Assembly: GCA_018829775.1 (NCBI GenBank) | Contig: JAHJTL010000006.1 | Span: forward strand, 1 to 36,762 | Length of the DNA: 36,762 nt | Direction of reading: 5' to 3' | Origin: Chloroflexota bacterium | Lineage (GTDB): Bacteria; Chloroflexota; Dehalococcoidia; Dehalococcoidales; RBG-16-60-22 | Part shown: one piece after another, positions 19,959 through 33,480 of the stretch | Position numbering within the stretch: position 1 is the first letter of the stretch | Layout: every line of letters starts with the position of its first letter | The notes under the pieces: generated by a model | The model's input: only the letters and a program-made list of their open reading frames with translations | Databases searched by the model: none | Told to the model about the DNA's origin: nothing | Made by a program: the position numbers and the translations under genes

Positions 19959-21836
19959 TCAGGCACATTTCCTTGCCAGCTCCAGCAGTCCCAGCCTGGT
20001 CAGACAGGCCTCGGTGGGCTTGCCTGTCCTGGGGTCCCATTCCATGGCTTCTCTGTATTCCCTGGTTAAGGTATCAATGTCTACGGTTACCCCTTCCAAA
20101 GGACCGGCGCTCTGAGGTGGTATTCCAGCCATTCTATCCGGCAGCTGGACGTCTGCCGGTGTTATCCCCTCGCGGACGTTGAATAGCTGCCTGAGAGTCT
20201 GGATTCTGGCGCCTGTCTCCAGGGCTTCACTCACTGACATATCCCATCCGGTTACCCCATTGATAAGCTCCAATAACGGATAACAACCGGAGAATACCAC
20301 GGGCATAAGACACAACCCGGCACTGGCACAGACCTGCCAGTAATTGGTGTTGGCAGCCGCGGCCGGTCCTTTACCCGTATACTGGTATTTCTCAAATCCG
20401 GAAACCTGAAGCTCTTTATACGGACCGGCGGCCGCGTTAACATCGCACCGGGTGTAAGGCGCGGCTGCGGTGTGCCGACCGGGCGTCGGGTCGGCAACGA
20501 ATCCGGTGCCGCGTCCCGGGAAAAACGTGGCATTGTGCAATCCGGGCTCCTGCCCGCCAACGTGCATGGCAAACCTTTCCGCACCTTTACCTATTTTTTT
20601 CGCCGCCACCTTCACGCCGTCAGCGAGCACGTCACCGAAACCCTCGCGGCGTCCTATCTTTTCGGTCATGGCAACCATGGCTTCCGAGTTTCCCCAGGTT
20701 AACTCTATACCATCTGTGTCCGCCTTGGTGATAATGCCGTTCTCATAGCACTCCATGGCGAAAGCGATAACGGAACCCGCCGATATCGTATCCAGCCCGC
20801 TGCGATTGCACATATCGTTCAATTTAAATATTGAGTCGAGGTCATCGTTCAGGCACATGTTGCCGAAGGCAGCCACCGTCTCATATTCCGGTTTGTGCGT
20901 CTCGGTTACCGGATATCTCCCGGAAGGCACCGTGGTAATACCGCCGCAGCGAATGGGACAGCTGAAACAACCGTATTTTTTCGTTTCGTAGGCGATAACG
21001 TTATCACCGCCTATTTTCTCAACGGTGGGGAAGGACTCCGTGCCGGTGAGCCGCCAGTTTTTAATCGGACTGACACCAGAGCCAACAACGGCTACCGTGT
21101 TGCCGCAGGTACCGTATTTGATTAACGTTTGAATGAAGCCCACATCCTTCATCTTCCTGGTGAATTCTTGATTCAGCTTTTTTATGCTGGCGCTGTCCAC
21201 CACGGCAACCTTGCCCTTTCCCCTCACCGCCACTGCTTTGAGCCGCTTGGAGCCCACAACTGCGCCGACGCCCGAGCGACCCGCGTACCGTCCTTTATCG
21301 TTGCAGACACCGCTGATTAGCGAGAGCTTCTCTGACGCAGGGCCAATACAGGCAACGCGAACTCTGGGGTCGCCGATCTCATTCGCCAGGGCTTCCTCTG
21401 TTTCAATGGCATCTTTTCCCCAGAGATGAGAAGCGTCCTTTATTTCAATGCCTGTGTTGGTAACCATCAGATATGATGGCCTGGGCGCTATCCCTGAGAT
21501 GAAAAGCGCATCCCAGCCGGCAAACTTAAGCTCGGGCCCAAAGTAACCGCCCGAGTTGGCATCACCCCAACCACCGGTCAGTGGCGATTTGCATACCACC
21601 GCGTAGCGACCGCCGGTCGGTACCGGTGTGCCGGTCAGAGGGCCGGTGACAAATCCCAGCACATTTTCCGGTCCCAGAGGGTCGACCCGACCTTTCTGTT
21701 TCTCAAGCAATATGCGGGCACCCAGTCCATGTCCGCCGATAAAATCCCTGGCCAGTTTTTCGTCCAGTTCCTGTTCGCGGATTTCACCATTGGATAGATT
21801 GATGAAACCGATCTTTCCGACATAACCTCCAGACAT
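19959..21836 (-). CDS. aor: Aldehyde ferredoxin oxidoreductase (tungsten/molybdenum pterin)
   Basis: 625 residues, the standard AOR length. The N-terminal domain begins GYVGKIGFINLSNGEI and contains GPLTGTPVPTGGRY and GRSGVGAVVGSKRLKA. The iron-sulfur cluster ligands are C290, C293, C297 in YGCFSCPIRCGG, and the late C509 in ASAGLC. AOR enzymes bind a tungsten bis-pterin and oxidise aldehydes to carboxylic acids with ferredoxin as acceptor; some work in reverse. A strong AAAGGAGGT precedes the ATG. It is 14 bases downstream of the ornithine-cyclodeaminase-like gene, forming a two-gene operon. Which aldehyde is used is unknown; the paralog family is large in anaerobes. Confidence 0.92.
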   Translation of the reverse strand: MSGGYVGKIGFINLSNGEIREQELDEKLARDFIGGHGLGARILLEKQKGRVDPLGPENVLGFVTGPLTGTPVPTGGRYAVVCKSPLTGGWGDANSGGYFGPELKFAGWDALFISGIAPRPSYLMVTNTGIEIKDASHLWGKDAIETEEALANEIGDPRVRVACIGPASEKLSLISGVCNDKGRYAGRSGVGAVVGSKRLKAVAVRGKGKVAVVDSASIKKLNQEFTRKMKDVGFIQTLIKYGTCGNTVAVVGSGVSPIKNWRLTGTESFPTVEKIGGDNVIAYETKKYGCFSCPIRCGGITTVPSGRYPVTETHKPEYETVAAFGNMCLNDDLDSIFKLNDMCNRSGLDTISAGSVIAFAMECYENGIITKADTDGIELTWGNSEAMVAMTEKIGRREGFGDVLADGVKVAAKKIGKGAERFAMHVGGQEPGLHNATFFPGRGTGFVADPTPGRHTAAAPYTRCDVNAAAGPYKELQVSGFEKYQYTGKGPAAAANTNYWQVCASAGLCLMPVVFSGCYPLLELINGVTGWDMSVSEALETGARIQTLRQLFNVREGITPADVQLPDRMAGIPPQSAGPLEGVTVDIDTLTREYREAMEWDPRTGKPTEACLTRLGLLELARKCA

Positions 21837-21850
21837 TTGAACCTCCTTTT

Positions 21851-22879
21851 CTATTCAGAAAAATTAAAAGTGGCAACTTCCTTCGCCACGGCTTTTTCAT
21901 ATACAAGCTTGGCACAGACTATGTCCTGAATCGCCAGTCCGGTAGAATCGAAAATGGTTATTTCATCATCGTTTTCTCTCCCTTTTTTCATACCGGCCGC
22001 TATTTCCCCCAGAGTGCCGTAGATATCGTCCGTTTTCAAAAGCCCCCGCGAGAACGGAACGTTGATTTCACCGGAATGACGTGCTTGCCCAAGTTCATCA
22101 ATGACAATCTTGGCACCTAGCAACAGGTCAGCTTCAATCTCCTGCTTTCCTTGCGCATCGGCTCCGATGGCATTAATATGGGTTCCCGGACTGATATGCG
22201 CCTTTTTAACCACCGGGTGAGTAGCGTAGGTAGTGGTCACCACAATATCAGCCTGCGCTGCCGCCTCGGCGGTTTCAACGGGATGAATGTTTATATTCAG
22301 TGTTGCTGCCATCTTCTGTGAAAATCTCTGGCTGGTTTCCTCCGGTAGCGAGTATACCTTGACCTCATCGATTCCTGGCAAAATCTCGCTTATAGCGAGC
22401 AGCTGCGCTTCCGCCTGCTTGCCGGCTCCTATCATTCCAACAACCGATGAGTCTTTCCTGGCCAAATATTTAACCGCTATTCCCCCAGCAGCCCCGGTTC
22501 TCATGTTGGTAATATGAGTGCCATCCATAATGGTCAGCGGGTAGCCGGTGCTGGGGTCACATAGAATAATTAACGCCATCACGGTTGGCAGATTGTACTT
22601 ACGGTTATCAGGGTAGACGCTCACCCATTTCATACCGGCGCTCCCATCGATATAGGCGGGCATAGCCCTGAAATCACCGTGGTAATCCGGCAGGTCCAAA
22701 TATATCTTGCCGGGCATGATGGCCTTGCCTTGAGCCTTGAGGCTGAAGGCATTTTCAACAGCTTCTAATGCTTCACCCATAGTAAGCAGTTTTTCAATTT
22801 CATGTTGGTTGATTAACAGCGTATTGAGTGCCGTAGACTGTTTATTCTCTTTGCTCCTTTGGTCGGAATTAATTTTCAT
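21851..22879 (-). CDS. Ornithine cyclodeaminase / mu-crystallin family dehydrogenase
   Basis: 342 residues. Family landmarks are GMKWVSVYPDN with the substrate lysine K84, THITNMRTGAAGG with R127, the NAD(P) loop MIGAGKQAEAQL (149-160), and the C-terminal FDSTGLAIQDIV. Members include ornithine cyclodeaminase, archaeal alanine dehydrogenase and various imine reductases, which cannot be told apart here. The ATG is preceded by AAGGGG. The operon with AOR suggests an amino acid or imine being turned over near an aldehyde or keto acid; this is inference. It is divergent from the TRAP transporter across a 380-base gap. Confidence 0.85.
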   Translation of the reverse strand: MKINSDQRSKENKQSTALNTLLINQHEIEKLLTMGEALEAVENAFSLKAQGKAIMPGKIYLDLPDYHGDFRAMPAYIDGSAGMKWVSVYPDNRKYNLPTVMALIILCDPSTGYPLTIMDGTHITNMRTGAAGGIAVKYLARKDSSVVGMIGAGKQAEAQLLAISEILPGIDEVKVYSLPEETSQRFSQKMAATLNINIHPVETAEAAAQADIVVTTTYATHPVVKKAHISPGTHINAIGADAQGKQEIEADLLLGAKIVIDELGQARHSGEINVPFSRGLLKTDDIYGTLGEIAAGMKKGRENDDEITIFDSTGLAIQDIVCAKLVYEKAVAKEVATFNFSE

Positions 22880-23259: not shown

Positions 23260-24336
23260 GTGAATAAATCAATACTGCTAGTTATTCTTGCACTGGTATT
23301 AATTATGGCCTTGATTGTTCCCAGCTGCGCCAAACCGGCTCCGGCCCCCGCGCCCGGTGCAGCGCCAACAGCGGCACCACCCGGAACTGAGTACCAGTAT
23401 CAATGGCGAAACAGCAGCAATTACCCAACCGACTCTGAAGGCGCTGATGCTATGTTCCGTTTCGGCGATCTGGTAACGGAAAGGACCAAGGGTCGTGTTA
23501 CGGTTACCAGTTATGCCGATGGGGTGCTGGGGGGATGGGATGCCATCCAGGAGATGGTTATCCGCGGCGATGTTGAGATGATGTTTGAAGCCATTGATGA
23601 CGCCTTTGACCCCAGAATCGCCGTAGGCTATTACATCCCGTACGTATTCATTGACTACGATGCGGCCCAACGCCTGTGGGCTCCGGGTGGCTACGTCTAT
23701 GAGACCCTGAATAACAGAATCATGGTTCCGCTGGGCTACCGGGCTCTCGGCGCCTGGTGTGCTGGCATCGGTGGGATAACCACCAGGGACGTTCCTCGCG
23801 AACCGTGGAATACCGATGTAGCCAAGGATATGAAAATCAGGGTCATGGCCCTGACCGCCTGCCAGCTCACCGCTGAGACTCTGGGCTATATGGTGGTGGG
23901 TATGCCCTTTGCCGACGTCTATACCTCCATACAGACCGGCATCGTCGATGGTCAGCAGGGTGGCGGCACCATGCAGGCCTATATCTTCAAGGATGTACAG
24001 AGCACATACCTTCACTACAAGGACTACATTGAGCCCATCTGGTATGTAGTCAACAATGATTCCTGGGCATCGCTCACTGAGGAGGACCAGCAGATTCTCA
24101 CCGATACCGCCCAGGAAATGCAGAATGAGCAGGCGGCATACGCCGAGGAGATGGACCAGAAGTACATGCAAATGCTGCGAGACTATGGCTGGACGGTACT
24201 GGAACCTACCGATGCAGAGTGGGAGCGCATGCAGCAAGCCGTCTTCGAAGAGGTCTGGCCAGAGCTCACCCCAATCATTGGTAAAGCCATCATTGACGGG
24301 CTTTATGATGCGCTGGGGATACCGCGTCCTGGATAA
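23260..24336 (+). CDS. dctP: TRAP transporter substrate-binding lipoprotein, DctP family
   Basis: 358 residues. The GTG start is fixed by AAAGGGAGGT six bases upstream. A lipoprotein signal peptide is clear: hydrophobic stretch 4-20, then VPSC with the lipidated C23, then a Pro/Ala-rich linker (24-42). The DctP core follows, with MKIRVMALTACQLTAETLG and GMPFADVYTSIQTGIVDGQ, which hold the ligand-binding arginine region and the family signature. It binds a small organic acid outside the membrane and delivers it to DctQM. The first gene of the operon, with a strong hairpin after it. The nearby sugar-acid dehydratase makes an acid sugar or hydroxy acid plausible as cargo. Confidence 0.93.
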   Translation: MNKSILLVILALVLIMALIVPSCAKPAPAPAPGAAPTAAPPGTEYQYQWRNSSNYPTDSEGADAMFRFGDLVTERTKGRVTVTSYADGVLGGWDAIQEMVIRGDVEMMFEAIDDAFDPRIAVGYYIPYVFIDYDAAQRLWAPGGYVYETLNNRIMVPLGYRALGAWCAGIGGITTRDVPREPWNTDVAKDMKIRVMALTACQLTAETLGYMVVGMPFADVYTSIQTGIVDGQQGGGTMQAYIFKDVQSTYLHYKDYIEPIWYVVNNDSWASLTEEDQQILTDTAQEMQNEQAAYAEEMDQKYMQMLRDYGWTVLEPTDAEWERMQQAVFEEVWPELTPIIGKAIIDGLYDALGIPRPG

Positions 24337-24364
24337 TTGACTGGAACAGGCACGTTTTACTTAA

Positions 24365-24399
24365 CCGGTGAGGGAGCTCAAGGCGAGTTCCCTCATCGG
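24365..24399 (+). other. Strong intercistronic hairpin between dctP and dctQ
   Basis: A 15-bp uninterrupted stem (24365-24379 with 24385-24399, two G-T wobbles) with loop AAGGC. No T-tract follows, so it is not a standard terminator. It fills about half of the 79-base gap. Such hairpins can protect the upstream message from decay or partly stop readthrough, giving more binding protein than membrane subunits. Confidence 0.75.
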
Positions 24400-24415
24400 C
24401 TGGATGTGAGGAAAT

Positions 24416-24958
24416 ATGGCGGCTGCAATAAGCTCTTTAGCCAGTAAGCTGGCTTTTCGCTGGATACCATCGCTCATGTGGTGGGTGATACTGGTATCCT
24501 GCATCCCTCTGGTAGTGCTTATTTTTATTCAGGTGTGGCTGCGTTATGTCTTCCATGTTCCCATGCTCTGGGTGGAAGAAATCGCCATTACCCCTGCCTT
24601 CTGGTTCTACATGATGGGGGCGGCTTATGCCGTTTACGAGCGGACTCACATTAGGGTGGACATAGTAGAAATCGCGATTCATAACCCGAAGCGACGGCTG
24701 ATAATCAGATTTATCTCCTCGCTGATTACACTTGGACTGGCCATGCTTTTTGTCTGGTGGGGCTATCAATTCTTTGTTTCGGACCTGGGATTCAAAATGG
24801 AGACGGCGACCTTGAGATACCCCATGATCTACGGACGCTGTTCTATCTTCTTCGCAGCCGGTATACTGGGGGGCTTTTACTTCTGGGTAGAAACAATAGA
24901 CCTGGCGCGCCAGCTATTCTGGGGCAAGCCTCCGCTATATGAAAGGAAGGAGACGTAG
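24416..24958 (+). CDS. dctQ: TRAP transporter small membrane subunit, DctQ family
   Basis: 180 residues with four predicted membrane segments. The segment IFIQVWLRYVFHVPMLWVEEIA carries the typical RYVF...W.EE motif of DctQ. A GAGGAA site precedes the ATG. It forms the membrane complex with DctM, whose gene begins six bases after its stop. Charged C-terminal tail in the cytoplasm. Confidence 0.88.
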   Translation: MAAAISSLASKLAFRWIPSLMWWVILVSCIPLVVLIFIQVWLRYVFHVPMLWVEEIAITPAFWFYMMGAAYAVYERTHIRVDIVEIAIHNPKRRLIIRFISSLITLGLAMLFVWWGYQFFVSDLGFKMETATLRYPMIYGRCSIFFAAGILGGFYFWVETIDLARQLFWGKPPLYERKET

Positions 24959-24964
24959 AGCGAA

Positions 24965-26314
24965 TTGGAGACCGCTTTATTTGGCATACCCAACCTGGGC
25001 ATATTTGTTGACCTGGCCATTCTGGTAGGTCTGCTCATGCTCGGTGTGCCTGCCCCCTTTGCCTTCATGGCGGCGCTGGTATTTCTGGTTTATGTCTATG
25101 GGTTTGAGCCCGGGGCGCAACTGCCCATGGCTTTTCATAAGTTGAAAGCATTTACCCTCCTTTCCGTTCCCTTCTTTATCATGCTGGGAGGGTTCATGAG
25201 TTTGGGAGGTATGGCGGACAAGCTGGTCGCTGTGGCCGATGCCCTTGTGGGCCGGATTAAAGGTGGTCTGGGAATGGTTGCGATAGTGGCCTGCGCCATG
25301 GTTGGCGCCATCGCCGGCACCTGCTCGGCGGCAGTGGCATCCTTAGGTCCACTGGTGATTCCAGAAATGGAAAAGCAAGGTTACTCCAGAGGATATGCCA
25401 CCGGGATGCTGGCGGTCGCTTCGGTGCTGGGGCAGCTAATCCCCCCCAGCGTACCGATGATTCTCTATGGCTTTGTTACGTGGGTGCCAGTCACCGCCTG
25501 TTTTCTGGCCGGGGTCGGGCCCGGCATCCTCACCGTTATCATTTACTGCATTATTAATTACTTCATGGTACGGAACAATCCCAACGTCAGGGTGGCACCC
25601 CCGATACCGATTAAGGCACAGGCCAAGCAGGTGGGAGTTGCTATTCATAAAGGATTTTTTACCCTGTTGCTGCCCATTATCCTCCTGGGGGGTATCTACG
25701 GTGGTATCTTCACCACCACCGAAGCCGCCGTTGTAGCCATGGTCTATGCCATAATCGTCGGGCTGTTTATCTATCGTTACCTTACTATCAGGATGATCGG
25801 GAGGACCTTTGTCTCACAGTGCGTTATCACCGGAGTGGTCATTCTGATGATTGTCTTTGTCATCATTTTAAGCCGGGTGATGACCATGCAGAATATCCCG
25901 CAGAGTTTGATTAAGATGATAAGTGGGGTTACCGAGAACTACTACGTAACTCTGCTGTTGATAAATGTCTTCCTCATCCTCTTGGGTATGATCGTGGATG
26001 ATTTCACCGGCACCCTGCTGGCAGCACCTCTTTTGTTTCCACTAATAACACATATCGGGGTGAACCCCATTCACTTCGCCGCTATTTTAGGCACTAACCT
26101 GGGATTAGGGAATGTTACTCCACCCACGGCTCCCATCCTTTATCTGGCGGCGCGTATCGGCAATGTCAGCGTTGATAAGATGATAAAGCCGGCGCTGGTT
26201 TTCATGGTTTTTGGCGCCCTGCCGGTGGTGCTAGTCACCACTTACTGGCCCGACCTGTCGCTGTTTCTGCCCCGGTTGATATTGCCCAAGATAATGGCCG
26301 GGATGGGCGGATAA
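24965..26314 (+). CDS. dctM: TRAP transporter large permease, DctM family
   Basis: 449 residues, almost wholly hydrophobic with about a dozen membrane segments. Family stretches include GVPAPFAFMAAL, AGTCSAAVASLGPLVIPEM and LGQLIPPSVPMILYG, and in the second half GMIVDDFTGTLLAAPLLFPL and GLGNVTPPTAPILYL. DctM is the sodium-coupled channel-forming subunit. The start is TTG at 24965, 12 bases after an AAGGAG site, a slightly long spacing; no better start is in frame. A probable terminator follows. Confidence 0.9.
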   Translation: METALFGIPNLGIFVDLAILVGLLMLGVPAPFAFMAALVFLVYVYGFEPGAQLPMAFHKLKAFTLLSVPFFIMLGGFMSLGGMADKLVAVADALVGRIKGGLGMVAIVACAMVGAIAGTCSAAVASLGPLVIPEMEKQGYSRGYATGMLAVASVLGQLIPPSVPMILYGFVTWVPVTACFLAGVGPGILTVIIYCIINYFMVRNNPNVRVAPPIPIKAQAKQVGVAIHKGFFTLLLPIILLGGIYGGIFTTTEAAVVAMVYAIIVGLFIYRYLTIRMIGRTFVSQCVITGVVILMIVFVIILSRVMTMQNIPQSLIKMISGVTENYYVTLLLINVFLILLGMIVDDFTGTLLAAPLLFPLITHIGVNPIHFAAILGTNLGLGNVTPPTAPILYLAARIGNVSVDKMIKPALVFMVFGALPVVLVTTYWPDLSLFLPRLILPKIMAGMGG

Positions 26315-26355: not shown

Positions 26356-26411
26356 AAAATAAAATCAATATAAGGTAAAATATCGCTGAAAAATATGGAA
26401 GGGGGTTGAAA

Positions 26412-27734
26412 ATGACAATCAATACATTAAGTATAGTTGATGAGTATATTAAAGCGCATCCCGGCTCACAGAAGCTGCATGAACGAGCAATGCGAATTTT
26501 CGCGGCCAATGGTGCTACCCATACTGCCCGTGTCCTTGATCCCTTCCGCCCCTACGTAGTGCGCGCGCAGGGAACCCGCAAGTGGGACGTCGATGGCAAC
26601 GAATACATCGATTTTGTCATGGGACACGGTGCCTTAGTTCTGGGTCATGCGCATCCCGCTATTGTCCAGGCAGTGCAGGAACAGGTGGCTAAAGGGACTC
26701 ATTATGGGGAAAACCACGAACTTGAAGTAGAATGGGCGGAACTGATTCAGCGCATGATGCCGGCAATGGAAAAGATTGAGTTTTTCCCCTGCGGCCAGGA
26801 AGCAAACATGATGGCCGTTCGTCTTTCTCGCCTCTTCACCAATCGTAAGAGAGTACTCCGTTTCGCGGAGAACTTTCACGGCTGGGGTGACGAGCTTGTC
26901 GCCACCACTACTCCAGGGGTGAGCAATGACTGCGTCACCATGCTACCCGGGCATGATTTGGAACTGCTGGAAAAGGAGCTGGCGACCAAAGAGTACGCCA
27001 TGGTCATGATTGAAGGTGGCGGCGCCCACATGGCCGGGCAGGTTCCCTGGGACCCTGATTTCGTCCGCAGTATCCCCCCGCTGACGCGCAAGTATGGCAC
27101 GATATTCCTTATCGACGAGGTGGTTACCGGCTTCCGCGATGCCACCGGCGGCTGGCAGTCCACCATCGGGGTTACGCCCGATTTGACCAGTCTGGGCAAG
27201 ATTATCGGCGGTGGGCTCGGTGTCGGCGCAGTTGGTGGTCGGGCTGATGTAATGGACATGCTCAAACCCAAGGCTCCTCCACAACCTTTTGCCCGGCACT
27301 CCGGAACCTGGAATGCCAACCCGCTCACCTCGGCCGCTGGGGTAGCCGCCTGCAAACTGTACCTTGATGGCGAACCACAGCGACGGGCCAATGAACTGGG
27401 CGCATATCTCAGGAAGAAAGGCAATCAGGCATTGAAGGACAAAGGGTATGCCGGCCGACTCTATGGGCGAACAATTAGCCATGTCTATCTTGGTCCGCCT
27501 GACTATGAACCGGCTGATGATAGCCTGCCGCCCACATCAGACGTGGCGAAGTTAATGTCGAAAGCGGATGTGAAGTTAAAGCTTTGCGTGCACCTGCTTC
27601 AGAGAGGCATCGCTACCATGGGCGGAAGGTTCTTCGTCCTGTCTGGTATGCATACCGAAAAGGAGCTGGACCAGGCAGTGGATGCCCTGATTTCAAGCCT
27701 TGATGCCATGGCAGCGGATGGAAGCTTAACTTAG
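26412..27734 (+). CDS. Class III aminotransferase, glutamate-1-semialdehyde aminomutase-like
   Basis: 440 residues from the ATG at 26412, which has GGAAGGGGG six bases upstream; a TTG two codons earlier is possible. PLP contacts are visible: CGQEANM (127-133; usual form SGTEANM), FHGWGD (155-160), LIDEVVTGFR (233-242), and the Schiff-base lysine K263 in TSLGKIIGGGLG. The layout is that of HemL-like enzymes rather than acetylornithine transaminases. True HemL serves haem synthesis, but this gene lies between a TRAP transporter and a sugar-acid dehydratase, so a catabolic aminotransferase or aminomutase is likelier. The Cys in place of Ser in the phosphate loop is unusual. Exact substrate unknown. 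Confidence 0.85.
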   Translation: MTINTLSIVDEYIKAHPGSQKLHERAMRIFAANGATHTARVLDPFRPYVVRAQGTRKWDVDGNEYIDFVMGHGALVLGHAHPAIVQAVQEQVAKGTHYGENHELEVEWAELIQRMMPAMEKIEFFPCGQEANMMAVRLSRLFTNRKRVLRFAENFHGWGDELVATTTPGVSNDCVTMLPGHDLELLEKELATKEYAMVMIEGGGAHMAGQVPWDPDFVRSIPPLTRKYGTIFLIDEVVTGFRDATGGWQSTIGVTPDLTSLGKIIGGGLGVGAVGGRADVMDMLKPKAPPQPFARHSGTWNANPLTSAAGVAACKLYLDGEPQRRANELGAYLRKKGNQALKDKGYAGRLYGRTISHVYLGPPDYEPADDSLPPTSDVAKLMSKADVKLKLCVHLLQRGIATMGGRFFVLSGMHTEKELDQAVDALISSLDAMAADGSLT

Positions 27735-29411: not shown

Positions 29412-30824
29412 TTAAGTGAGTGTCACAGTATCCCGGTAGCCTGGAACCCGTGTTTGCCACCCTGTCTGTTCACTGATGAATTTCGCAAGGCTGGTCGCGG
29501 CTTTTTCCTCACCGTGGGTGACAAAGACGCAGCGAGGTGGCATGCGCATGTCGGAGAGCCAGGCCAGCAGCCCTTCGCGGTCAGAGTGGGCGGAGAAGCC
29601 ATGTATCTGAACCACACGCGCCCGTACCGGATAGGTATGCCCCAATAGTCGGAGTTCTCTTGCCCCATCCAGAAGGCGTCTACCCGGCGTTCCCTGCGCT
29701 TGATACCCTGTGAACAGTATGGTGTTCTCCGGTCGAGTAATGTTATTCACCAAGTGGTGCTTGATGCGGCCGCCTGTTACCATACCGCTGCCGGCTATGA
29801 TTAGTACACTCCCTTTGGTGGAGTTGATTGCTTTAGACTCCTCCGTAGTCTGCACTATCTTCAAGTTATCAAAACTAAAGGGTGAATTCCCCTGGTGCAG
29901 ACGCTGCATCATTTCCCTGTCGAAGAGTCCAGCGTGATGTTTGAAGACCTCGGTAATACGTATCGCCATCGGGCTATCCAGGAAGACAGTAATCGGCGGG
30001 ATTTCATCGCGCAGGAAGAGTTCGTTCAAATGGTAGAGCAGTTCCTGGCTGCGCTCCAATGCGAAGCTGGGCACAACGATGTTGCCGCCAGCCTTGATTG
30101 TCTCGTTGATACAGTCGCGCAGTTGTGCCTGAATATCGACGTTCTTGTGTTCGGCGTGGGTGCGGTTGCCGTAGGTTGACTCGATGACCACGTAATCCGC
30201 CTCATAGAAAATGGCCGGGTCATTTATGATAGGGCGGTCGGGTTCGCCAACATCGCCGGAAAAGAGGATGCGGCGCTTCTCACCGTCCTGGATTATATTA
30301 ATGGCAACAGTGGCCGAACCAAGCACATGGCCAGCCTCATAGAAGCATCCTTCGATGCCATCTTTCACTCTGATACAACTATCGTATTCCACGGCGGCGA
30401 AATGCGGGGTAACTGCCTCGGCATCCCTGGTGGTGTAAAGCGGCAACTCTGGATATGGCCCACGCCGCCCTTCGCGCTGATGACGCTGTGCCTTATAGAT
30501 AGCGTCTTCTTCCTGCAGGTGTGCAGAGTCGAGCAGTATGATTTGGGCGATTTCAGACGTTGCCTGTGTACAGTATATCTTGCCCTTGTAGCCATCGCGC
30601 ACCAATTTGGGCAACAGGCCGCAGTGGTCGAGATGGGCATGGGTTAAAAAGACAGCGTCGATGGTGTCAGGGCGGAACGGGAATGGCTGCCAGTTCCTTT
30701 CCTGATATCCGCGTTCCTGATATAACCCGCAGTCCACCAGCACACGGACATCTGAGGTCTCCAGCAAATAGCAGGAACCGGTTACATTGTGCGACGCACC
30801 AAGGAATGTGACTTTAGCCAGCAT
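29412..30824 (-). CDS. Metallo-beta-lactamase fold, beta-CASP ribonuclease family
   Basis: 470 residues. The metal site THAHLDHCG holds H62, H64, D66 and H67, followed by AGHVLGSATV and LFSGDVGEPDRP with further ligands. The beta-CASP insert starts after VVIESTYGNR, and the C-terminal part has IHGFSAHSDREGL and VTHGEEKAA, the RNA-specificity module. Such proteins are RNA endo- and exonucleases related to CPSF73 and archaeal/bacterial RNase J-like enzymes. The gene is the last of a minus-strand series, 62 bases after the mtmB-like gene; a functional link to it is not evident. Start ATG has AAAGGAC about 12 bases upstream. Confidence 0.9.
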   Translation of the reverse strand: MLAKVTFLGASHNVTGSCYLLETSDVRVLVDCGLYQERGYQERNWQPFPFRPDTIDAVFLTHAHLDHCGLLPKLVRDGYKGKIYCTQATSEIAQIILLDSAHLQEEDAIYKAQRHQREGRRGPYPELPLYTTRDAEAVTPHFAAVEYDSCIRVKDGIEGCFYEAGHVLGSATVAINIIQDGEKRRILFSGDVGEPDRPIINDPAIFYEADYVVIESTYGNRTHAEHKNVDIQAQLRDCINETIKAGGNIVVPSFALERSQELLYHLNELFLRDEIPPITVFLDSPMAIRITEVFKHHAGLFDREMMQRLHQGNSPFSFDNLKIVQTTEESKAINSTKGSVLIIAGSGMVTGGRIKHHLVNNITRPENTILFTGYQAQGTPGRRLLDGARELRLLGHTYPVRARVVQIHGFSAHSDREGLLAWLSDMRMPPRCVFVTHGEEKAATSLAKFISEQTGWQTRVPGYRDTVTLT

Positions 30825-30886: not shown

Positions 30887-32272
30887 TCATAGGTAAGGTG
30901 AAGTGAGCGGCATTCTTAAACCGAACTCGTTACCCATCTCCTTTCTGACTTCGCGGTAGAGCTCTATACATTCTTTAACCGGCGTTCCCGCCGCCAGATT
31001 AAAGTATTCTGGGAATTTCTTACCGGCCGGGGGGTCCTTTAACGAGCTTTCATACTTATCAAGCAGTGCCTTCACTATTTTATTCGCCTCCTGACGGCTC
31101 ATCCCGACTACGGAATGCGCTATCCCGTTGCCGAAGATATTCTCCAGGGGTCCGGAATTGTCTACAATTACCCCTCTCGATGGGGGAGCGATTTCGACGG
31201 AGCCACCGGACACCACGGAGGCGACAATCGCCGCGCTATACTCGTAATAGCTCATTTTGGTCATCGGCCCGGCCATCGAATACACCGGACTAACTATCGA
31301 TAGTGGGCTGTGGCGGGTCGTGGCTTGATTGGCTACGCTCCGTGCCCAGATTGTATTACGGTTGGAGGTGGTCCCCATCTCAATGGGGACGGCAAAGGGA
31401 TGTTGTGCCACCCCTCGTATGACAAGCATATCTACCGGATTATAGGCGGCGCTGACCACCGCCACGCCCACCGGTCCACCGGCGAAACCACCCAGGATAA
31501 CCCCGTTTTCGGCAAAGGTTAAATTCCCCACGGCTTGCGCATAAGCGACCTTGTTCAGCGCGTCGAGGTCTACCTTCAACTCGTGGACGGTGCCTATTTC
31601 CAGAAAATCCGTTTTCGGATTACCAAATCGGTGACCCGCAATATGTTCCGGAGCCCTTATCGCTGAAGCCACCTCATTGACCACCGGCATTCCCGGACGG
31701 CCGGCTCGACGCAAGGCCTCACGGGTTAGAAGTATGGTCCTAATGGCACCCTCCAGCCCCATGGGACTACCCGCCACCAGTGGCTGTCCATCCAGATTGG
31801 TCAGGCAGGGAGCGGTGATACCATCCGAAAGAGGGTCCTCCGCATATGTCTTGACTATATTGATTAAATTCAACTCGCTGGATACCGGACCGGCTCCTGA
31901 ACCGGAACACCAGGGAGGCGTTTCATCTTCCGGGAAACGCCGCGGCATCACCCTGGCATCTTTTCCCTCACCGTACACCACATTCACCGGTGCTGATGCA
32001 ATGGCTCCTTCTATCTCCTCTCGGGTGAAAAGAACCCGTCTTTCCGTATCAAGGCAGTAAACCCCCGTCTCAACGAGAAACTCCATGGCCGCTTCCCAGA
32101 CTCTATCAGCCAGGTCGTCATCTGCCGGGACCGGGTTCTGCGGGTCATATTTAATGTCATACTTCTCTACCACTTTGCGCAAGTTAGGCACAAAGATACG
32201 GAGGTCAAAATCCCGCTCCGTGCAAATTGGGCCATTAAACGCCCGCTCCATAACTGTCCCAAAACTAATCAT
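30887..32272 (-). CDS. MtmB-family methyltransferase homolog lacking pyrrolysine
   Basis: 461 residues, close to the 458 of methanogen monomethylamine methyltransferase. Segments I recall from MtmB recur in order: CTERDFDL, ETGVYCLDTERRV, YGEGKDARV, AGRPGMPVV, ELKVDLDALN, FGGFAGG-like GGFAGGPVG, and AGKKFPEYFNL near the end. In MtmB the pyrrolysine (UAG) follows AGRPGMGV; here that position is V198, encoded GTC, and no in-frame TAG occurs. Pyl-free MttB relatives such as MtgB demethylate quaternary amines to a corrinoid protein, so a different methyl donor is expected here. No corrinoid protein gene is in the window. It follows the YeiH-type transporter by 29 bases, presumably co-transcribed. 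Confidence 0.82.
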   Translation of the reverse strand: MISFGTVMERAFNGPICTERDFDLRIFVPNLRKVVEKYDIKYDPQNPVPADDDLADRVWEAAMEFLVETGVYCLDTERRVLFTREEIEGAIASAPVNVVYGEGKDARVMPRRFPEDETPPWCSGSGAGPVSSELNLINIVKTYAEDPLSDGITAPCLTNLDGQPLVAGSPMGLEGAIRTILLTREALRRAGRPGMPVVNEVASAIRAPEHIAGHRFGNPKTDFLEIGTVHELKVDLDALNKVAYAQAVGNLTFAENGVILGGFAGGPVGVAVVSAAYNPVDMLVIRGVAQHPFAVPIEMGTTSNRNTIWARSVANQATTRHSPLSIVSPVYSMAGPMTKMSYYEYSAAIVASVVSGGSVEIAPPSRGVIVDNSGPLENIFGNGIAHSVVGMSRQEANKIVKALLDKYESSLKDPPAGKKFPEYFNLAAGTPVKECIELYREVRKEMGNEFGLRMPLTSPYL

Positions 32273-32301
32273 CGGTTTATTTTACCCTCTTTTCTGATTA
32301 T

Positions 32302-33480
32302 TTACAGTGTTACATAGGGGCCTATGAGCAACACCAGAATCAGGCTGGTTACTCCGACGATTGTGGCTGCGAACAGTCCGACGTAGAAAGGCTTTATTCC
32401 CAGCCCTCTGACAGTAGCAAAGGATGTTCCAAGGCCAACCCCGGCCATGGCTGTGGCCAGGATGTATCCGGACCATTGTTTAATATTGACCACTACCGCC
32501 TTCCAGGTCTCATCGGTAAGCAGTGCGAAAGCTTGACCTCCGCTATTTATGCCGGCATCGCCGGCTGACCTCAGGATAGCCATAACGAGAAATCCAATGA
32601 TGAACAATGGGAACAATTTCAGTGGATTAATCCTGGCTCCGCGTTTTGACTCCCCCGATTTAATACTTCGTCGGTTATAGATGTAGGCCATAACGGGGAT
32701 AACTGCGGCCATCATGGCGTTCCTCACCAGTTTGGTTACCATGGCTGCGTCGGCAGCGGTTGGATTCGCGCTCGTCTGAAATGTCTGGTCGTATATTAAG
32801 CCCGCTCCGGCTACCTGTGCGGTCTCATGAATTGAAGTCCCGGTGAAGAGGCCAACCATGGTCGTGCTCCCCGAGAATATCAGGTGAGATAGGTAGGGAT
32901 AAATAAACATGGCTATCAGGCCAAAAACCGTGATATTAGCCACTGCATAGCTCACCTCCTCATCCTTGGCACCGATTCCCGGCGCCGTCGCCACTATCGC
33001 GGAAGCGCCACAGATGCTGGTGCCAACGGCGATTAGCGTGCCAAGGCGCTCCGGGAGCTTGAGCAGACGTGTGAAATATGTGGTGACGATAAGTCCAACC
33101 AGGATGCAGAGTATAACGATGGGCAGCCCCCAGGTACCCAGCTTCAATACATCGAAAATGCTCAACCGGATGCCCATCATGATGATTCCCAGCCTCAGGA
33201 GCTTTTTCAGACAGAAACTCAAGCCGGGTTTGAAGATGGGATGCAGCCCAATCAGATTCCTTATCAGGATGCCGGCCAGAATGGCCACTATAATATAGCT
33301 GATAACCCCTCTTTGTCCCAGAGCGGAGTTGATTAGGTTGGTAAGCTGTATTGAGGCGACAACCAGCACAACAGCCAGAGCAACCCCGGGAATGAGCGCC
33401 GGTGTTTCTCTCAACGTGCAGCCGAAGATGAGCTCTTCAATCAGGTTGGGTTTGCGTTTTACCTTGTCGCTGTCACTCAT
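32302..33480 (-). CDS. YeiH/UPF0324 family putative anion exporter
   Basis: 392 residues with about ten membrane segments. Conserved family stretches include LAGILIRNLIG, LLRLGIIMMGIRLSI, GTSICGASAIVATAP, GTSIHETAQVAGAG and AMAGVGLGTSF. The family (YeiH, PF03601) includes proteins proposed to export sulfate or organosulfonates; the true cargo is mostly unknown. The gene lies directly upstream of the mtmB-like gene, so transport of that enzyme's substrate or product is a reasonable guess. Start ATG has only a weak purine-rich site. A separate promoter lies at 33524-33552. Confidence 0.87.
   Translation of the reverse strand: MSDSDKVKRKPNLIEELIFGCTLRETPALIPGVALAVVLVVASIQLTNLINSALGQRGVISYIIVAILAGILIRNLIGLHPIFKPGLSFCLKKLLRLGIIMMGIRLSIFDVLKLGTWGLPIVILCILVGLIVTTYFTRLLKLPERLGTLIAVGTSICGASAIVATAPGIGAKDEEVSYAVANITVFGLIAMFIYPYLSHLIFSGSTTMVGLFTGTSIHETAQVAGAGLIYDQTFQTSANPTAADAAMVTKLVRNAMMAAVIPVMAYIYNRRSIKSGESKRGARINPLKLFPLFIIGFLVMAILRSAGDAGINSGGQAFALLTDETWKAVVVNIKQWSGYILATAMAGVGLGTSFATVRGLGIKPFYVGLFAATIVGVTSLILVLLIGPYVTL

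Follow-up and report, generated by a model that had tools for sequence, protein, structure and literature searches.

The stretch of DNA analysed here (the window, 36,762 nucleotides, which is the whole of contig C6 in a Dehalococcoidia genome of 2.16 Mb, 118 contigs and 95.6% completeness) raises the question of what a bacterial protein of the MtmB methyltransferase family does when the position of pyrrolysine (Pyl) is occupied by valine. Pyl-free MtmBs are an already known kind: a published tree contains 1,061 Pyl and non-Pyl MtmBs, most of the latter without a function (PMC13044021, 2026), and the same work gave a Pyl-free MtmB its first function, that of a tetramethylammonium/choline:corrinoid methyltransferase, in MtqB of Methanococcoides methylutens Q3c, whose subgroup bears a Met/Cys pocket signature. 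The remark in the initial annotation that Pyl-free MtmB relatives are much less discussed is outdated by that study. In 'Ca. Formimonas warabiya', moreover, growth on dichloromethane induces a Pyl-free MtmB-superfamily protein more than any other (PMC9768040). A preprint on mlp gene clusters (PMC10418091) does not treat MtmB, and no paper on the Dehalococcoidia clade described below was found in titles and abstracts that covered few subscription journals. With function assigned to a Pyl-free MtmB for the first time in 2026 and still lacking for most of them, this clade lends itself well to the next test, since members of the partner families are encoded in the same genome and the proteins can be made without a pyrrolysine system.

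Identity of the window protein

The gene and the codons that bear on its identity are the following.

30887..32272, minus strand: Pyl-free MtmB-family methyltransferase, paralogue C, 461 aa (PF05369, 1l2q, AlphaFold2)
31679..31681, minus strand: V198 codon GTC, position of Pyl202 of MtmB1 (alignment, offset 4)
31598..31600, minus strand: E225, equivalent to MtmB1 Glu229 (residue table; coordinates calculated from the ORF start)
31508..31510, minus strand: E255, equivalent to MtmB1 Glu259 (residue table; coordinates calculated from the ORF start)

The open reading frame is full-length, residues 7-447 of its product matching positions 6-446 of the 450 in profile PF05369 (E 1.2e-82; 278.6 bits against a curated cut-off of 25), and a phmmer search of the PDB pairs it with the MtmB1 chains 1l2q and 1nth at E 1.3e-51, the identity to MtmB1 of Methanosarcina barkeri being 28%. 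PF05369 is the sole family reported by Pfam, with no match to the MttB family PF06253, and no NCBIfam model matches the protein at E 0.001. The initial annotation had proposed an MtmB homologue with valine at the pyrrolysine site, and both parts of this proposal are borne out: V198, encoded by GTC, aligns with Pyl202 (X in 1l2q), and a constant offset of 4 separates the two proteins at 198/202, 225/229, 231/235, 255/259 and 331/335. An alignment of 56 rows made with MAFFT introduces a one-residue gap beside the site and pairs N199 with Pyl instead; we take V198 as the equivalent residue because the spacing is equal on both sides of the site and no net gap is needed.

The reading frame contains no stop, and comparison with the orthologue in another genome of the genus (L046) yields a dN of 0.069 and a dS of 0.93; a dN so far below dS, together with the absence of stops, indicates that the gene is under purifying selection and is not a decayed Pyl gene. 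As nothing in the 95.6%-complete genome exceeds the cut-off for PylS (the best TIGR02367 score is 22 bits against a cut-off of 178), readthrough at a Pyl codon and decay of a former Pyl gene are both ruled out by the GTC codon, the dN/dS comparison and the lack of pylS. The window protein is a genuine, functional-looking member of a known, poorly characterised family.

Fold, active-site residues and phylogeny

An AlphaFold2 model built from 28 rows (mean pLDDT 92.3, pTM 0.93) finds its best Foldseek matches in the MtmB structures 1L2Q, 1NTH and 1TV2 (TM 0.93, rmsd 1.7), the MttB structures coming next in the ranking at a TM of about 0.5. In the predicted structure the MtmB TIM barrel is retained, which answers in the affirmative, for the barrel itself, the question about the barrel pocket that had been left to structure prediction. 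The window protein is like the Pyl-free enzymes MtgB, MtpB, MtcB and MtyB of the MttB superfamily in the absence of Pyl, in a putative methylated amine donor and in a related corrinoid protein; unlike it, those enzymes belong to COG5598/PF06253, and the structural similarity is limited to the TM of about 0.5. With MtmB1 (1L2Q, 1NTH) it shares the Pfam family, the full-length TIM barrel, the positions E229, E235, E259 and Y335 and the family of the corrinoid partner, whereas it differs in having V for Pyl202 and P for Q333, in being bacterial, in occurring without a pylS over cut-off and in that its methyl group would probably pass to THF rather than to CoM.

Glu229, Glu259, Gln333 and Tyr335 of MtmB1, which we take from the MtmB structure papers to be the residues lining the Pyl site, although a search of open papers turned up no such statement, correspond to E225, E255, P329 and Y331 of the window protein. 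Predicted strands contain V198 (197-199), E225 (223-227), E255 (251-260) and Y331 (325-332), and the retained residues are assigned to the Pyl site from their identity in both Pyl-MtmBs and from these positions on the predicted barrel strands. The protein falls within a fully supported clade of 20 Dehalococcoidia/Chloroflexi sequences, which holds a corrinoid-linked A type together with B and C types. Glu229, Glu259 and Tyr335 are kept in all 20 members and in one relative outside the clade (L077), while the Pyl position is V throughout the clade and I in L077, and the Gln333 position is P, V, S or L. No other Pyl-free row examined keeps both E229 and E259, L058_3531 keeping E259 alone. What is new here, at the level of aligned residues, is that a Dehalococcoidia clade, with one outside relative, keeps Glu229, Glu259 and Tyr335, unlike the other Pyl-free members examined; an active site that keeps the acids of the Pyl-MtmBs while losing Pyl is of direct relevance to the question of why pyrrolysine is required.

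The tree of Pyl and non-Pyl members that had been proposed as a check sets the window clade apart from the two Pyl-MtmBs (M. barkeri and DCMF), which form a clade of their own. Grouping of the window clade with MtmB1 through the shared acids is rejected (AU p 0.00017, for a clade named after the residues were seen and in a tree with one long Pyl branch), so that the retained acids are either ancestral, with losses elsewhere, or convergent. The Pyl-MtmB of 'Ca. Formimonas warabiya' DCMF (L086, G405:C1:2702114-2703466) has one in-frame TAG exactly at the Pyl site and serves as a positive control; it is the only one of the eight MtmBs in its genome with an in-frame TAG. That genome, with one Pyl-MtmB and seven Pyl-free paralogues, offers a natural comparison set.

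These comparisons bear on two alternatives to the N-methylated amino acid or betaine-like substrate that we favour. The window protein might be a choline or tetramethylammonium methyltransferase like MtqB, performing the same reaction on a small quaternary amine without a carboxylate. MtqB, which uses QMA, choline and, to a small extent, MMA, is the sole Pyl-free MtmB with a demonstrated function that we found, and both it and the window protein are Pyl-free members of the MtmB family with an associated corrinoid protein. MtqB is archaeal and delivers the methyl group to CoM, and there is no sign of a shared substrate. An MtqB-like role seems unlikely: the MtqB clade branches near the Pyl-MtmBs (PMC13044021) whereas the window clade lies apart from the two Pyl-MtmBs in our tree, and the neighbours of the window clade point toward amino-acid enzymes. 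A non-amine methyl donor such as a chlorinated methane, acted upon by an MtmB scaffold in which a hydrophobic residue replaces Pyl, seems to us very unlikely. The protein most induced on dichloromethane (PMC9768040) is, like the window protein, a bacterial Pyl-free MtmB from a host with the Wood-Ljungdahl pathway, and seven of the eight DCMF MtmBs have no in-frame TAG; yet the DCMF Pyl-free members examined (L067, L100, L109 and L113, which may or may not include the induced copy) are distant and without E229 and E259, whereas the window clade keeps the polar acids and has amine-processing neighbours. CdmB, the chloromethane protein, was considered separately as a relative and ruled out, being a UroD-family protein and not an MtmB.

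Paralogues and methyl-transfer partners

The genome contains three MtmB genes, one in the window and two in tandem on contig C19, and each of five other genomes of the genus contains two or three; with an MtmB match in 7 of 400 sampled Chloroflexota genomes, the family is patchy in the phylum. No MttB-family (PF06253) gene was found in the genome. There is no corrinoid gene beside the window copy, but the suggestion that corrinoid proteins be sought elsewhere in the genome proved fruitful, since such a gene heads the operon of the paralogues on C19, where the order on one strand is corrinoid protein (217 aa), MtmB-A and MtmB-B. This corrinoid protein passes TIGR02370 (217.1 against a cut-off of 215.3) and scores 220.8 bits on the MtgC model, under the cut-off of 310. 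By hand tally, 20 of 27 MtmB loci have a corrinoid gene adjacent or close by, the loci coming from Chloroflexota, Spirochaetota, Desulfobacterales, Bathyarchaeota and other groups, at least two of the seven loci without one being short or cut contigs; the scan of genome contigs returned 22 loci, several of them the same records as the genus genomes.

Contig C82 encodes a methyl-THF:corrinoid methyltransferase of the PRK07535 type (324 bits, cut-off 259), RACo domains over the Pfam cut-offs occur in the genome, and the CODH/ACS cluster, on contig C8, includes a methyltransferase and an activase of its own. Given the corrinoid protein, the methyl-THF methyltransferase, the activases and CODH/ACS, this organism has the component families needed to feed methyl groups into the Wood-Ljungdahl pathway; that these particular proteins cooperate, including a pairing in trans of the C19 corrinoid protein with the window copy, is what we infer. 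The same CODH/ACS cluster would fit a corrinoid methyltransferase that runs in the reverse direction, or that serves C1 assimilation or methionine supply instead of catabolism, and corrinoid systems are reversible in principle; the deaminating enzymes and the solute uptake system near the gene nevertheless suggest catabolism, and we hold the reverse or assimilatory role to be highly improbable.

The PRK07535 gene lies in a putative operon (L074, G000:C82:3226-9492) that comprises, on one strand, genes for a class III aminotransferase, an ADP-ribosylglycohydrolase-family protein, a UroD-family protein, the PRK07535 methyltransferase and a RACo-type activase; its aminotransferase is 75% identical to one beside corrinoid and MtmB genes at L054. 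Three further corrinoid proteins (L028 on C82, L029 on C61 and L030 on C13), each adjoining UroD-family methyltransferase-like genes, are likely to represent additional demethylase systems, to judge by their gene content.

Gene neighbourhood of MtmB

The neighbouring genes of the window considered here are the following.

32302..33480, minus strand: YeiH-like (UPF0324, PF03601) membrane protein, E 2.8e-67, 29 bp upstream of MtmB on the same strand
26406..27734, plus strand: class III aminotransferase, closest PDB names of D-phenylglycine / glutamate-1-semialdehyde type
23260..26314, plus strand: TRAP transporter DctP-DctQ-DctM (profile matches)
21851..22879, minus strand: OCD/mu-crystallin family 'alanine dehydrogenase' (TIGR02371)
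19959..21836, minus strand: protein of the aldehyde:ferredoxin oxidoreductase family, following the OCD-type gene after 14 bp

A coupling of MtmB to the YeiH-like protein, which the initial annotation thought might move the substrate or product, is not supported by the survey of genomes. The protein stays under the cut-off of subfamily TIGR00698 (140.1 against 232.6 bits); a PF03601 search that covered the genus only found the family in none of the five other genomes (MAGs 76-89% complete), all of which carry MtmBs; and the window YeiH has no match among the ORFs at other MtmB loci. Not being found in the rest of the genus, YeiH is rejected as a partner of MtmB, and its characterised relative is the protein on which the resistance of Salmonella to sulfite chiefly depends (PMC12880088). 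That resistance, the 29-bp spacing on one strand and the nearby class III aminotransferase and TRAP transporter could be accommodated if an N-methylated sulfonate, for instance N-methyltaurine, were the substrate and the sulfite were exported by YeiH. Against such a functional coupling stand the results of the survey just described and the best matches of the window aminotransferase, which are not of the taurine-pyruvate type, and we regard it as scarcely probable. The corrinoid protein, the class III aminotransferases and the OCD-type dehydrogenases are better neighbour signals than YeiH.

In two further genomes of the genus (L046 and L047) the orthologue of the window MtmB has a class III aminotransferase as its immediate neighbour, and the TRAP genes are syntenic with both (DctP of L047 being truncated by the contig end); class III aminotransferases flank MtmB also at L054, L056 and L066 in the clade. 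Outside the genus the aminotransferases share 22-26% identity with the window enzyme, and different subfamilies are represented among the loci. DctP has no PDB relative at E 1e-20. The window OCD-type gene has relatives next to (corrinoid-)MtmB in L056 (75% identity) and L053 (66% identity), and OCD-type genes number 0-3 per genome. In two post hoc tests, with few loci and with families chosen after the loci were seen, 4 of 8 independent loci have a class III aminotransferase within 5 kb of MtmB (0.61 expected, P 0.0017) and 4 of 10 have a member of the OCD family within that distance (0.12 expected, P 3.5e-6), the window OCD-type gene, 8 kb from MtmB, being outside the latter count and two of the four linked loci lying outside the Dehalococcoidia clade. 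It is a new observation that class III aminotransferases and alanine-dehydrogenase-type enzymes are found near MtmB more often than expected by chance, and the enrichment in both tests suggests that demethylation yields an amine or amino acid which is then deaminated.

Proposed function

We believe, with our confidence evenly balanced, that the window protein is the MTI of a Pyl-free corrinoid system whose substrate is an N-methylated amino acid or a betaine-like amine; its catalytic activity, the pairing with a partner in trans, the direction of flow and the substrate are all features that we infer. As a substrate-binding, corrinoid-dependent methyltransferase working without pyrrolysine, it would bind a methylated nitrogen compound in the TIM-barrel pocket and methylate the Co(I) of a small corrinoid protein; this acceptor is probably the protein of 217 aa encoded with the two paralogues on C19. 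A PRK07535-type methyltransferase would pass the methyl group on to tetrahydrofolate and thereby to the Wood-Ljungdahl pathway, and a RACo-type activase would re-reduce the corrinoid. Uptake of the substrate, of which N-methylated amino acids or betaine-like amines would be the likeliest class, may be carried out by the TRAP transporter, and once the methyl group is gone, the class III aminotransferase or the OCD-type alanine dehydrogenase encoded nearby would deaminate the resulting amine.

That the methyl donor is a new one, as had been supposed from the sequence at the outset, is plausible. More tentatively, we raise the possibility that N-methylated amino acids are demethylated by this clade as a distinct group of Pyl-free MtmBs, with the retained Glu229 and Glu259 binding or protonating the ammonium group of the substrate, whose amine would stand in for the pyrrolysine adduct. 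As quaternary amines are the main substrates of the Pyl-free enzymes characterised so far, a secondary or tertiary amine would be an unusual substrate. If true, this proposal would extend the MtmB family to a new class of substrates and give Dehalococcoidia a catabolic route for N-methyl amino acids, and methylated amines would join the carbon sources of the uncultured members of this group.

Other genes at MtmB loci

Genes of the aldehyde:ferredoxin oxidoreductase family share stretches with MtmB in three genomes (window 19959-22879, L078 and L084). In L046 (4621-9386), 5-oxoprolinase PxpABC-like genes, named by reading the sequences, and a 'putative hydro-lyase' gene (NF003969) lie directly upstream of an MtmB of the window type. 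Across the clade (L055, L022 and L050), DapA-like, enolase-superfamily and phosphotriesterase-like genes form a conserved block that is convergent with the MtmB operon; the block beside the C19 operon was considered as a hydroxyproline-betaine pathway and rejected as such, the DapA-like protein scoring as an ordinary 4-hydroxy-tetrahydrodipicolinate synthase and the enolase an uncharacterised relative of mandelate racemase. Finally, a beta-CASP metallo-hydrolase is encoded at 29412-30824 of the window, between an enolase-family gene and MtmB; it matches Cas14-type and aCPSF1 models under their cut-offs and is probably an ordinary beta-CASP nuclease.
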